64,000 nucleotides of DNA from a bacterium (GTDB lineage: Bacteria; Eisenbacteria; RBG-16-71-46; CAIMUX01). A model generated the notes under the pieces. That model ran no database searches. It had not been told where the DNA came from and saw only the letters and a list, made by a program, of their open reading frames with translations. The DNA lies in the NCBI GenBank assembly GCA_030431975.1, contig JAUIHP010000001.1, forward strand, positions 248,001 to 312,000. The letters are read 5' to 3'. This document shows positions 2,685-7,902 of this stretch, piece by piece; position 1 is the stretch's first letter, and each line of letters begins with the position of its first letter. The translations under genes and the position numbers were made by a program.

Positions 2685-3128
2685 GACGACCTCCTTTGTT
2701 CCAGACTCCCTGGATGGCGCCCCCATTGTCGACGAACCCTCGATCGCTACCATCCCATTTTGGATTCATATCAAGCTACGGGCGGGTTGCGTCAGAATTG
2801 TGTCAGCGGCACGACAAAGTGCCATCAACGCCAAAACCTGTCGGTAGAGTTTTTTCTCCCAAGTCGGCTGAATCCGACCGTCTTTGAGCCATTCGCCCCG
2901 CGAACCTCTTTCCCGCCAAGTCCTTGAGGCATTTGACGGCGCTGTTTGCTCTCATTTGTCGCCACCCGGTACAATTACGACACGTGCAGTGAACGTCCCC
3001 CCTCTGCGGACCGGCTGGAGCCGGATCGCGGAATCAGACATCCGGCCCTCGGGCCCCAGATCGACCGTCATCCCGTCCGCAGGATGCAAGGACTTCGACG
3101 GATCGGATCAAGGAAGGAAAGACCTCTC
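2685..3128. other. Divergent intergenic region with a candidate promoter
   Basis: This 444-base gap separates the divergent lipoprotein and protease genes. It contains the candidate promoter listed at 2946-2975 and a T-rich stretch near 2850. I see no convincing short gene or RNA in it. Confidence 0.5.
2946..2975 (+). promoter_or_regulatory. Candidate sigma-70-like promoter for the protease gene
   Basis: TTGCTC at 2946-2951 and TACAAT at 2970-2975 are separated by 18 bases. The -10 matches TATAAT at five of six positions; the -35 matches only at TTG and the final-C half is weak. The predicted start site leaves a leader of roughly 145 bases before ATG 3129. Confidence 0.35.
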
Positions 3129-6101
3129 ATGCGTGCCACTCGCGCCCTTACAGCTGGCGTTGCCCTCACTGTCCTCGCCGGAACAGCTCATGCCGACGCC
3201 ATGCAGAATTCCCTCAGCGAAACGCTGACACCCCAGCGGGTCATCGTCAAACTGCGCCCCGAGATTCAGGGGAACGTTCGCTCCACCGCGACCGCCGCGG
3301 GTCGAACCGGAGTGGCTTCGCTCGACACACGGCTGGCCCGGATCGATGCGCAAACGATCCGCCCCCTCTTCAATATGGACGTGAATCCCGAGGCCAAGCG
3401 GGCTGCGGGGATGGACCGCTTCTACGTCGTCGACTACGGCGCGCCGTTGCCTCCCAACCAGGCCATGTCCCTGGTCGCGGGGCCGGAACTGGAGATGGCC
3501 GAGCCCGAAGTCGTCTATCGCAAGATGGTGACTTTGCCGGATGACCCGGACTTCGACGAGCAATGGTGTCACATCAACCCCGTCTTCCCTTTCGGTTGGA
3601 CGGAGGACTGCGACGGTGACACGCCGATCGCGTGGGACTACGAGACAGGCGATCCGAACCTGATCATCGCCATCATCGACAGCGGCGTCGACATCGACCA
3701 CCCGGAATTCGAGGGACGGACGGTCGACGGTTGGGACTTCGTCAACAACGACGACGATCCGGCAGACGACGAGGGACACGGAACAGCTTGCGCCGGCATC
3801 GCCGCAGCGTCCGGTAACAATGGAGAGGGAATCGCCGGTGTCATGTGGGAAGGCTTGATCATGCCGGTCAAGGTCCTGAACGACGAAGGTGAAGGCGCAT
3901 CGAGCTGGGTCGCCAACGGCATCGAGTTCGCCGCCGACAACGGGGCCGACGTCATCAGCCTGAGCCTGGGAAGCAGCTCCCCGTCAGGTGCGATCCAAAC
4001 TGCGGTCAACTACGCGTTCAATACCCAGGGAGCCATCCTGTTGGCCGCCACGGGGAACGACAACAACCCGACCATCGGATACCCCGCGGCCTTCGCCAAC
4101 TGCATGGCCGTCGGCGCCATGTCCCCGTGCCTCGAGCGAAAGAGCCCGAGCAGCTGCGACGGCGAGGGTTGGTGGGGATCGAACTACGGAACGGGAATCG
4201 ACTTCGTCGCTCCGGGCGTGGACATGTTCACGACCGACGTAACCGGCGGCGGCGGCTACACCATCTTCGACTACTTCTCGCAGTTCAACGGAACCTCGTC
4301 CGCAACGCCGTACGCTGCGGGCGCGGCGGCACTCGTCTGGTCGATGTACCCGTCACTGACCAACGCGGAGCTGCGCGATCTTTTGCGCAAGTCGGCCACC
4401 GACATGGGCGCACCCGGCTATGACCTGGAGACGGGCTACGGCCACGTCAACCCGGCCAGCGCCATTCAGGCCCACGGACTCATCGATGCCACAGGATCAC
4501 TGGCCGGCGCGGCCGTTTCGCGCGGGGTCAGCTGGGGTGATGTCGACGACGACGGGGACGCTGACCTCTACATCGTCAACGACGGTTCGGCAAACGAGTA
4601 CTACCGGAACGACAACGGAACCTTCGTCGACGCCACGACCGGGCTCCTCGCCGACGCGGGCTCCGGCTACAGCGCCGTCTTCGGCGACACCGATGGAGAC
4701 GAGGACCTCGATCTCTACATCGTCAACGACGGGATCAATGTCTTCCTGCGTAACGACGGTGGAACCTTCGTCGACGCGACCGTCGCGCCTTTGAACAATG
4801 GTGACGCGGGCACATCGTCCTCGTGGGTCGATTATGAAGGAGACGGCGACCTCGACCTTTACGTCGTCAACGACGGTACCGAGAACAAGATCCTCCAGAA
4901 CGACGGATCCGGAGTCTTTACGGACGTCAGCGCGCTTCCCCTTGGCAACACGCGTGCCGGGAAAGGTGTCGCCTGGACCGACTATGACAACGACGGAGAT
5001 CAGGATCTCTATCTGGTCAATGACGGACCGAACCGACTGCTTCGCAACGACGGTGGCGGAGTCTTTTCCAACGACACCGGCGCACTCCTCGATAACCTGA
5101 CCGGTCACGGTACCTGCTGGGCGGACGTCAACAACGACGGGTTCATGGATCTGTTCGTCGCGAACGCTGCCGACGGAAACCGCATGTGGATCTCGGACGG
5201 AGCCGGAACCTGGACCGACCTGGCCGCCGGGACGATGATGGCAGAGACCTACGACACGCGCGGATGTACCTTTGCCGATCTCGACAACGACGGCTACGAA
5301 GACCTCATCCTGACCAACTTCAATGGAGCCAACTCGGTCTACCGAAACGAAGGCGGAGTCAGCTTCACCAACATCGTCGCACTGGGCCCGGCTGCGAACG
5401 ATGGACAGGGTCAGGGCGTGGCCGCCGCTGACTACGATTGCGACGGCCAGATCGACTTCTTCGTCGCGAATGCCGACGGGGCAAACGTCCTCGTTCGCAA
5501 CGACCAACCGGCCATCCATCACTGGATCCAGCTCCGCCTCCACGGCGTGACCTCGAACACCGGCGGCATCGGCGCCCGGGTCCAGATCGTCGCCGGCGGC
5601 GTGACCCAGATCCGTGACGTCCGCGCCGGCGCAGGCTACCTCTCCCAGAACGAGGCGACCGTTGCTTTCGGATTGGGCAGCGCCACGATGATCGACGAGA
5701 TCACGGTGACCTGGCCGAGCGGTGTCGTCGATGAAGTCGAGAACTTCGACATCGTCGACACCAAGATCGATTTCATCGAAGGCGAGGGCGCAGCTACGGA
5801 CGCACCCGAAGGACCGCGGGTCCTGCAGGATGTCCTGGCTCAGAACTCTCCGAATCCCTTCTCACTCGAAACGGCTATTCGCTTCCGGCTGGAGGAGCCG
5901 TCCTCGGTCCGACTCGCGGTCTTCGGTGCGGACGGCCGCCGGGTACGCGCGCTGGTTGACGGCCCGAAAGAAGCCGGGGAGCACCTGGCCTTCTGGGATC
6001 GACGGGACGACACCGGCGCCACGGTTGCAGCAGGGGTTTACTTCTATCAGATCCAGGTTGCGGGAGTGAGTGAGTCGCGACGGATGGTCGTGGTCGAGTA
6101 G
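3129..6101 (+). CDS. Secreted subtilisin-like protease with FG-GAP repeats, UnbV/ASPIC domain and FlgD-type tail
   Basis: This 990-residue protein starts at ATG 3129 after AAGGAAGGAAAG. A signal peptide covers residues 1-22, followed by a pro-region to about 140 (with RVIVKLRPE) that resembles fervidolysin-type propeptides. The S8 peptidase domain has Asp184 in IIDSGVD, His217 in GHGTACAG, oxyanion Asn310 in ATGND and Ser390 in NGTSSATP, so the catalytic set is complete. Residues about 465-795 contain repeated D-x-D-x-D-G/DLYIVNDG calcium-type FG-GAP/VCBS units forming a predicted beta-propeller. About 797-880 is an UnbV/ASPIC domain (GIGARV, TWPSG). Residues about 904-990 are a FlgD-type Ig domain opening NSPNPFS and ending in a basic, hydrophobic strand. 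This is an extracellular protease, probably surface anchored or sorted through the tail, though the sorting route is not shown. Confidence 0.93.
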   Translation: MRATRALTAGVALTVLAGTAHADAMQNSLSETLTPQRVIVKLRPEIQGNVRSTATAAGRTGVASLDTRLARIDAQTIRPLFNMDVNPEAKRAAGMDRFYVVDYGAPLPPNQAMSLVAGPELEMAEPEVVYRKMVTLPDDPDFDEQWCHINPVFPFGWTEDCDGDTPIAWDYETGDPNLIIAIIDSGVDIDHPEFEGRTVDGWDFVNNDDDPADDEGHGTACAGIAAASGNNGEGIAGVMWEGLIMPVKVLNDEGEGASSWVANGIEFAADNGADVISLSLGSSSPSGAIQTAVNYAFNTQGAILLAATGNDNNPTIGYPAAFANCMAVGAMSPCLERKSPSSCDGEGWWGSNYGTGIDFVAPGVDMFTTDVTGGGGYTIFDYFSQFNGTSSATPYAAGAAALVWSMYPSLTNAELRDLLRKSATDMGAPGYDLETGYGHVNPASAIQAHGLIDATGSLAGAAVSRGVSWGDVDDDGDADLYIVNDGSANEYYRNDNGTFVDATTGLLADAGSGYSAVFGDTDGDEDLDLYIVNDGINVFLRNDGGTFVDATVAPLNNGDAGTSSSWVDYEGDGDLDLYVVNDGTENKILQNDGSGVFTDVSALPLGNTRAGKGVAWTDYDNDGDQDLYLVNDGPNRLLRNDGGGVFSNDTGALLDNLTGHGTCWADVNNDGFMDLFVANAADGNRMWISDGAGTWTDLAAGTMMAETYDTRGCTFADLDNDGYEDLILTNFNGANSVYRNEGGVSFTNIVALGPAANDGQGQGVAAADYDCDGQIDFFVANADGANVLVRNDQPAIHHWIQLRLHGVTSNTGGIGARVQIVAGGVTQIRDVRAGAGYLSQNEATVAFGLGSATMIDEITVTWPSGVVDEVENFDIVDTKIDFIEGEGAATDAPEGPRVLQDVLAQNSPNPFSLETAIRFRLEEPSSVRLAVFGADGRRVRALVDGPKEAGEHLAFWDRRDDTGATVAAGVYFYQIQVAGVSESRRMVVVE

Positions 6102-6143: not shown

Positions 6144-6302
6144 TCACGCACGCGATGCCTTCGGCGAGTCGTTCTTGGGCTCGGAAACTCCGGTCCCGCA
6201 GCTGTCGCTCATTCAGGTCGGAACACCGAGGCGCGGCAGAATCACGGCCTGAAGCAGGATCCATAGCGCGAACAAACCGACGACAAGTAAAGCGTCATAC
6301 AT
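6144..6302 (-). CDS. Candidate single-pass selenoprotein with in-frame TGA (Sec) codon
   Basis: An ATG at 6302, with AAGGG about 6 bases upstream, opens a frame encoding MYDALLVVGLFALWILLQ, then AVILPRLGVPT, then TGA at 6215-6213. The same frame continues MSDSCGTGVSEPKNDS to a second TGA at 6146-6144. Read through with Sec at codon 30, the product is 52 residues: a very short N-terminus, one membrane helix (about residues 5-23), a Leu-Pro-Arg-x-Gly-Val-Pro-Thr-Sec motif, a Cys five residues after Sec and a charged tail. The Sec/Cys pair next to a membrane suggests a redox or metal-binding site. A SECIS-like hairpin lies at the right distance (see 6179-6202). Without Sec insertion the product would be a 29-residue membrane peptide. 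The family assignment is not established, and no selA, selB or selC gene is in the window. Confidence 0.5.
6179..6202 (-). promoter_or_regulatory. SECIS-like hairpin downstream of the in-frame TGA
   Basis: In the transcript, numbering from the base after UGA, positions 11-13 GCU pair with 32-34 AGC, G14 is bulged, and 15-19 CGGGA pairs with 27-31 UUCCG (one G-U). The 7-base loop is CCGGAGU. The loop begins 19 bases after UGA and contains a GG pair. Bacterial SECIS elements recognised by SelB lie just downstream of UGA as a short stem with a bulge and a G-containing loop, so the geometry fits. I folded it by eye only. Confidence 0.4.
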
Positions 6303-6464
6303 GTAAGGCCCTTGACCTCCGCGTCTTCCCAGTAAGCGAACCACCTGGTTTGGATGCCGCAGAGTTGCAAACCGTTACCCCCGGGGACGCACGCACAAGA
6401 CCTGGCGCCGCCCTCGAAACAAAGTCTTGAGCGGGCTTCGGATCGAAGGGCCGGCTTCGGACCC

Positions 6465-7588
6465 TCATTGACCGCGGCGGCTGGATCCAAACGCCTTCTT
6501 CAACTCGCCCCAACCCCGTCGGACCACCGGCGATGGAACGCACATCCCGTCCGAAGCTCCCAGAGCGACAGAGCAGTCCTCGAGCCCCTTGTTTTCGAAC
6601 GGCCGTCGAAGCGGAGAGTCCGACTCAAGGTGGAAAGACTCGTCCTCGTCACAAAACAGCGGATCGACCTCGAACAAACGCCCACGCCAGGCTCCCAGTA
6701 GCAGGTGCCGATGATCGCCCTGTGGTTGTCCCAGAACGCGTTGCAGAAGCATCGATCTGCGCCGGTCGTGTAGACAGCAACGGCGTCATTGTTGGCAAAA
6801 CTGCAATTGAAGATTCCACCGTCGGAGCCCAAGTCTCCCGTGAAGACACTATCGTCGGACTTGTTTCTCACGAAGGTGTTGTTCACGAGTCGAGTCCCGG
6901 CCAATCCAAAGACGGCGGCGCCTGTAATCGCTTCGTTCGAATCGAACAAACAGCGCCGAATCTCGACGTTCCCCTCCGCCGCGACTGCGCCGCCGCCACA
7001 GTATCCACTCCCCCACGGTCCGCCGAACATCGTGCTGTTGCTCCTGAACACGCAATCCTCGACAAGAGCGCTCAAGCCCGGCAACGTCGCCGTGACAACG
7101 ATCGCGCCACCTCCAAGTCCTTCGCCCAACCGTGTCGCATGGTTGTTCTCAAAGTAACAATTCTGAACCAGGCAGTCCTGGATCTGTATCAAGCGGCAAG
7201 GGAGGGGAAACCCACAAACCTCGCAGTTCTCGACTACTACCGACTCGGAATCGAAGAAGTGGAGAGCTGAAAAGTCACGGCCTTCGAATCGAAAGCCTCG
7301 AATGACTGCGTCAACCGGCTGGATCGACCCGACCGACTGTGGGACTGTCGAGTCCGGACCTGCAGAGGCCAGAAGGACGATGTCTCGTTGAAAGTAGACC
7401 GGCTCGGAGTAAGTGCCTGGGAGAACCATCACGGTATCACCCGAGGCCGCCGCATCGACCGCCTCCGCCACCGAAGCATAGTCAGATCCGCCGTCGGGCG
7501 ACACGGTCAGCGTCGCTCCCAGCGACTCGGAACCGACCGTAATCGCAAGCGCAGCCAGGAGCGCGAAGGGTAACGAACTCCGACACAT
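6465..7588 (-). CDS. Exported right-handed beta-helix protein, frameshifted near the C-terminus
   Basis: The start is ATG 7588, followed by a signal peptide (MCRSSLPFALLAALAITVG). The mature protein opens with the typical TLTVSPDGGSDYASVAEAVDAA segment of DUF1565/pectate-lyase-like beta-helix proteins (a GDTVMVLPGTYSEPV strand follows), then runs through solenoid turns with N/D/C-rich corners (VVENCEV, VQNCYFENN, RCLFDSNEA, NTFVRN). Near 6676-6678 (AAA on the plus strand, TTT in the gene) the frame slips. Adding one T joins GTCYWEPGVGV to LFEVDPLFCDEDESFHLES, the usual closing motif of such proteins, and the repaired protein has 374 residues and ends at 6465. As written, the frame continues to 6500 with an unrelated tail. 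It is probably extracellular; its ligand is unknown. It could be a sequencing error or a decayed gene. Confidence 0.65.
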
Positions 7589-7902
7589 GACCACCCCGAT
7601 GACTTCGCCCAAACGCAGCACGCGACCTCGCCGTCCAGCCGCCGGTTCCAGCGGCTCGTTGCTAGGGTACCGCACTCCAGTCGTGCTGGTCTGTACCCCT
7701 TCGACCGCCTTCATCGTCGGCACCTCATTACGCACTCCCCGGGTCACCATCGCGCTTCGGACACATTGCCCTTCATTACTACGTACGCCCCCCGGGCCGG
7801 GGTAGTCGTCGACCCTTCCCTGTGCGACTATACCGCCATTGTAGGTCATCAACAGTGGCACCGGATTGGCAGAACCGTGCGCTCATCGAACTCGGAGGTC
7901 TT
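7589..7902. other. Divergent intergenic region
   Basis: This 314-base gap separates the divergent beta-helix and receptor-like genes. Open frames cross it on both strands, but I find no initiation signals or recognisable product. Promoters for both flanking genes presumably lie here, though I cannot identify them with confidence. Confidence 0.4.

Follow-up and report, generated by a model that had tools for sequence, protein, structure and literature searches.

A new family of very small bacterial selenoproteins, predicted to be membrane-anchored and inferred to serve a Sec/Cys relay

The question raised by this locus is whether a TGA at codon 30 of a short reverse-strand reading frame ends a small membrane peptide or encodes selenocysteine (Sec), and, in the latter case, what a protein of this kind might do. 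The frame lies in the window, by which we mean the whole 64,000-nucleotide stretch of DNA that was analysed, and when read through the TGA it yields a product of 52 aa, MYDALLVVGLFALWILLQAVILPRLGVPT-U-MSDSCGTGVSEPKNDSPKASRA (Table 1). An earlier note on this DNA had described a ribosome-binding site and ATG, a hydrophobic helix, an in-frame TGA, a Cys at codon 35 and a polar tail running to a second TGA, all of which we confirmed; AAGGG and GGAGG precede the start codon, AlphaFold2 predicts the helix, and across the family a Shine-Dalgarno-like motif was found 5' of the gene in 171/192 members versus 49% of shuffles. The Leu-Pro-Arg-x-Gly-Val-Pro-Thr segment singled out in that note was also read correctly, and corresponds to the conserved core of the family described below.

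Table 1. Coordinates of the selenoprotein gene and its features in the window
Feature	Position	Strand	Basis
Selenoprotein gene	6144..6302	(-)	ATG 6302, 52 codons plus stop, TGA stop 6146-6144; read-through translation, 191 TGA homologues
TGA codon 30, read as selenocysteine	6213..6215	(-)	TGA in 191/192 homologues, TGT (Cys) in L205
Single transmembrane helix, residues 2-25	6228..6299	(-)	AlphaFold2 pLDDT 91-95; hydrophobic; Trp at -16 in 173/191 TGA members, Tyr in others
Core motif P-[RK]-x-G-[VI]-x-T-U, residues 23-30	6213..6236	(-)	Pro-7 and Gly-4 (relative to Sec) invariant, 191/191; Thr-1 in 190/191 TGA members
Cys35, Sec +5, candidate resolving cysteine	6198..6200	(-)	Cys at +5 in 153/191, at +6 in 14/191
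SECIS-like hairpin, apical loop at UGA +24 nt	6174..6201	(-)	Fold prediction; family excess 86% vs 32%; covariation
Ribosome-binding-site-like AAGGG 6313-6309, GGAGG 6320-6316	6309..6320	(-)	Sequence; family-level SD excess

A first scan of one genome per species recovered 23 loci encoding relatives, every one of them with TGA at the same codon. W14, LQAVILPR, G26, T29 and Sec30 were invariant in that alignment, with the caveat that the exact invariance of LQAVILPR is partly a product of the search pattern. Homologues with either Cys or TGA at codon 30 had been named as the evidence to look for, and the wider search found TGA in hundreds of genomes and Cys in one. The 192 homologues collected have a median length of 53 aa; besides the residues listed in Table 1, Gln or Asn at -12 is conserved in 170/191 TGA members. 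Seven TGA members have no Cys at all after Sec, which rules out a Sec-Cys pair as a requirement throughout the family. The sole Cys (TGT) homologue, L205 (G802:C1:110134-110274), retains the Cys at +5 and provides the single instance of a Sec/Cys pair among homologues, one of the criteria for membership among selenoproteins. Two further candidates for Cys homologues, L072 and L260, were rejected as chance matches at 22-23 bits.

The family is spread over the window's own phylum, Chloroflexota, and genomes labelled Acidobacteriota, Planctomycetota and Deltaproteobacteria. Profile searches found it in 7/47 genomes of the window's phylum, 155/395 genomes of the phylum of the Olavius algarvensis Delta 4 endosymbiont, 94/396 genomes of the Acidobacteriota-labelled phylum (two probably chance matches), and 6/158 genomes of a Chloroflexota class, where one match is due to chance and five are genuine. 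These counts are not independent events, as some of the genomes are closely related. Searches of plasmids and phages with tblastn returned no match to the family.

Conservation that ended at the TGA would have refuted Sec decoding, and this is not what we found. Within the 14 codons 3' of the UGA, 41 independent close pairs had accumulated 81 single changes that were synonymous and 76 that were nonsynonymous, compared to a synonymous share of 22% expected without constraint (p = 3e-16), a pattern that indicates purifying selection on this stretch. The family thus meets the membership criterion of a UGA conserved in frame with conserved sequence on both sides (191/192).

The earlier note had also placed a hairpin at SECIS distance, with its loop 19 bases after the UGA. 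The hairpin exists (CTGCGGGACCGGAGTTTCCGAGCCCAAG, about -9 kcal/mol), but its predicted loop of 3 nt, GUU, begins 24 nt after the UGA, 5 nt from the position given. Rfam had no match on the window. Qualifying hairpins occurred in 115/133 family sequences (86%) versus 32% of synonymous-codon shuffles, and in a subgroup defined solely by its protein motif (Cys +5, Asp +9) 62% of the cells of the predicted stem were paired and 69 cells were compensatory, versus at most 40% and 31 for slid versions; a Cys-Gln-Val subgroup was less clear-cut, with 72% paired, yet 73% in one slid version. By this excess and covariation the family meets a further criterion, a SECIS-like hairpin directly 3' of the UGA. 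The conserved Gln-Val or Glu/Gly-Asp at codons +6 to +9 past Sec overlap loop sequences of the SECIS found family-wide (AGGU at 16 nt, GGA at 23 nt), and we infer that protein conservation at these codons may be RNA-driven rather than protein-driven.

The source genome was checked for selA, selB, selC and selD, and all four are present: SelA (494 bits), SelB (344 bits), a tRNA-Sec with a TCA anticodon, and SelD (373 bits), which has an in-frame TGA of its own (G000:C52:182266-183189, L174) and, on that evidence, is probably itself a selenoprotein. SelB scored above the cut-off in 24/26 searched genomes that carry the family. Co-occurrence with SelB was rejected as a test, since it fails to discriminate among sampled phyla in which SelB is nearly universal (44/49; 114/158); in a Desulfobacterota-type sample SelB was found in 25/29 genomes with the family versus 19/20 without. 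It is nearly certain, in our judgment, that the window protein belongs to a new selenoprotein family, although an experiment is lacking.

We found no previous description of such a family. The window protein matched no family in Pfam or NCBIfam (June 2026), and 23 members gave only scattered, chance-level matches to these databases, none of them convincing; the NCBIfam scan took in those families named by Haft and Tolstoy (2025) that have models, and the profile comparison extended to the Sao and OS/GOS selenoproteins for which a model exists. The family was not found in a full-text literature search (the text of Haft and Tolstoy, 2025, was outside its scope), and is absent from the 2026 catalogue of 119 prokaryotic selenoprotein families and subfamilies (Table 1 of PMC13188914). 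It shares with the catalogued bacterial selenoproteins decoding by UGA, SECIS and SelB, Sec with a nearby Cys, and redox-type neighbours, but none of those listed in PMC13188914 has P-K/R-x-G-V/I-x-T-U with Cys at +5, and they are for the most part Sec versions of families that otherwise have Cys, a thioredoxin-like fold being found in many, whereas the window family is a single-helix mini-protein. The Tso selenoproteins (TsoA, B, C, X and Y) are likewise recently catalogued, and TsoB resembles a rhodanese/DsbD fusion, but no member of our family matches NF045695, NF045694, NF045708, NF045809 or NF047643. The absence from Pfam, NCBIfam and the current selenoprotein catalogue is apparently explained by tiny size, an early end under standard annotation and the near lack of Cys homologues, which, we infer, would have hidden the family from searches that rely on Sec/Cys pairs.

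AlphaFold2 modelled the window protein as one helix followed by a disordered tail. It lacks a thioredoxin fold with UxxC or CxxU, and the spacing is U-x4-C. The N side of the helix carries a mean charge of about -0.4 and the C side one of +1.5 to +2, and by the positive-inside rule we predict an N-out/C-in topology with the Sec end cytoplasmic, for which this charge bias is the only basis. A similar architecture occurs in the animal proteins SELENOK and SELENOS, single-pass membrane selenoproteins with a cytosolic Sec, but these are eukaryotic and longer, and their Sec lies near the C terminus; we know of no homology between them and the window family.

Like the family and its Sec decoding signals, the gene neighbourhoods of the relatives can be read from the sequences themselves. 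We surveyed 192 loci for eight sulfur/redox families on the same strand within 1.5 kb: FmdB zinc ribbon, thioredoxin, rhodanese/metallo-beta-lactamase (MBL), YgaP-like TM (DUF2892), DUF302, ArsR, TauE and CcdA. At least one was present at 84/192 loci and none at 108/192, the window's own copy being among the latter. FmdB was found within 0.6 kb at 45 loci, co-oriented in 45/45 and never on the opposite strand at that range. Same-strand bias was also evident, within 0.6 kb, for thioredoxin (19 same, 0 opposite), MBL-rhodanese (18/0), DUF302 (15/0), DUF2892 (14/0) and ArsR (11/2), the exception among recurrent neighbours being CcdA, which was mostly on the opposite strand. Matches fell off with distance, a within-locus control, and Pfam confirmed the neighbour domains for representatives. 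Adjacency to FmdB extends to the window's own phylum (L031), Chloroflexota, and the Acidobacteriota-labelled and Desulfobacterota-type phyla. Recurrent architectures, with [SEC] marking the selenoprotein gene, were ArsR-[SEC]-FmdB-Trx-CcdA (L172), DUF2892-[SEC]-Trx-FmdB (L218, L237) and MBLrhod-[SEC]-TauE (L023), and a fusion of pyridine-nucleotide-disulfide oxidoreductase and rhodanese lies upstream of the Cys homologue L205. Several clades are instead found near MobB, MoaE, an ECF sigma factor or an RND pump.

A selenol at the membrane edge with a partner Cys, encoded beside thioredoxin and sulfur-transfer proteins, most simply suggests a Sec/Cys relay that handles sulfane sulfur or disulfides. 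The family would then consist of very small single-pass inner-membrane selenoproteins in which the UGA at codon 30 is decoded as Sec through SelB, tRNA-Sec and the SECIS hairpin just 3' of it, placing Sec where the membrane borders the cytoplasm, with its partner Cys at +5 or +6. By inference, the selenol might accept sulfane sulfur or reduce a membrane-proximal disulfide or persulfide, the +5 Cys might resolve the intermediate as a Sec-Cys selenenylsulfide, and thioredoxin might recycle the relay; in many relatives the protein would be part of a sulfane-sulfur/redox operon (ArsR, thioredoxin, FmdB, rhodaneses, YgaP-like TM, TauE, DUF302, CcdA). We give this explanation as a whole, a tiny membrane selenoprotein with a Sec/Cys relay role, a probability of roughly 60% in the absence of activity data. 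Topology, chemistry and substrate are inferred only, as is an equal job for the window's isolated copy, and neither translation past the UGA nor any activity has experimental evidence.

For the function taken alone, a thiol or sulfane-sulfur relay inferred without experimental activity, we consider the odds about even. Many relatives lie in gene sets similar to persulfide and sulfane-sulfur operons, which combine ArsR-type repressors, persulfide dioxygenase/rhodanese, TauE and YgaP, and ArsR repressors responsive to sulfane sulfur are documented (PMC12423496). Cys occurred in 11/15 ArsR neighbours at one alignment column and in 8-9/15 at two others; a Cys sensor in these proteins was rejected as a candidate, the columns not having been matched to known sulfane-sulfur sensors. 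In the literature searched, no selenoprotein component of this kind appears in sulfane-sulfur operons, and a dedicated sulfane-sulfur relay role is undescribed for any selenoprotein. A more tentative idea, which we hold at somewhat less than even odds, is that this nearly Sec-obligate mini-protein is a dedicated sulfane-sulfur/persulfide component across several phyla, its membrane-tethered selenol passing sulfur or electrons among rhodaneses, thioredoxin and a membrane thiol carrier.

The earlier note had left the choice between Sec/Cys redox chemistry and metal handling open. Redox chemistry fits the +5/+6 Cys (167/191 together) and the thioredoxin and rhodanese neighbours; metal or organometal handling, in which a membrane-edge Sec would bind Hg, As, Cd or Cu and hand it on to an exporter, under ArsR control, is less well supported and rather unlikely, but is not excluded. 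Selenols bind soft metals, the FmdB neighbour is a zinc ribbon, and ArsR (15-24 loci) and RND exporters (17-18 loci) fit a metal role equally well; the Sao selenoprotein system also appears to be organometal-related, as far as can be told from the title of ref. 63 in PMC13188914. Against this, we recognised no MerA/MerB/MerT, ArsB or P-type ATPase family in the neighbour clusters that recur, one phylum accounts for almost the entire RND cluster, and rhodaneses, TauE, YgaP-like TM and thioredoxin are sulfur or thiol proteins.

Less likely again is a membrane peroxidase or thiol reductase, recycled by thioredoxin, whose substrates would be (per)oxides of lipids or membrane proteins. Peroxidases that use Sec are familiar, and Sec at the predicted bilayer edge, a resolving Cys, and thioredoxin and CcdA neighbours would suit one, but the short disordered tail has no peroxidatic scaffold, and no catalase, peroxiredoxin or OxyR-type genes were among the clusters recognised. 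An accessory factor for maturation of molybdenum cofactor or formate dehydrogenase seems improbable: MobB occurs in 9 loci and MoaE-like genes, by eye, in 12, but in the Acidobacteriota set no MobB lies near the gene, no fdh genes were recognised among the recurrent clusters, and we rejected the link as clade-specific, MoaE being encoded on the other strand and coming mostly from a single clade.

We regard it as highly improbable that the TGA is an ordinary stop, ending a membrane peptide of 29 residues with only non-coding sequence beyond it. Standard annotation would end there and no database family matches, but the Cys at +5/+6 is conserved, purifying selection continues past the UGA, the codon is TGA and not TAA or TAG in 191/192, hairpins show excess and covariation, and the one Cys homologue reads straight through. 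Decoding as Trp, the meaning of TGA in some bacterial lineages, or as another amino acid is the least likely reading in view of the full Sec machinery of the source genome, the SECIS signal, and the lack of TGG at this position in any homologue, with TGT in one.

Among the genomes sampled, the new selenoprotein family is present in about 39% for one large phylum and 24% for another. It adds a common family to the bacterial selenoproteome and suggests that Sec-obligate families escape Cys-pair searches. The neighbourhoods, with their sulfane-sulfur and thioredoxin genes, point to a step that depends on selenium, and it is possible that a widespread sulfur or redox step of this kind has gone unnoticed.

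Other genes near the family were noted in passing. In one clade a 3D-domain-like protein lies upstream, with a convergent MoaE-like gene, and a protein of the pattern MTHxDxGNYAAKH...LSC.AAH...CQLGLFG, without a match in Pfam, lies directly downstream, about +100 to +540 from the TGA (L073-L076, L080, L081, L085, L086, L088, L040, L047). An ECF sigma factor and then an anti-sigma-like protein are found directly 3' of the selenoprotein gene at L017, L018, L049, L054, L057 and L064. In the window itself, the gene upstream (6465-7861, reverse strand) is a frame of 453 aa that by eye resembles a beta-helix-like repeat protein, apparently frameshifted near 6650 with a likely C-terminal continuation in another frame (6465-6752), and a large convergent ORF (2946-6101, forward strand) has, also by eye, the look of a subtilisin-type protease that carries FG-GAP-like repeats and, at its C terminus, a sorting-like tail.
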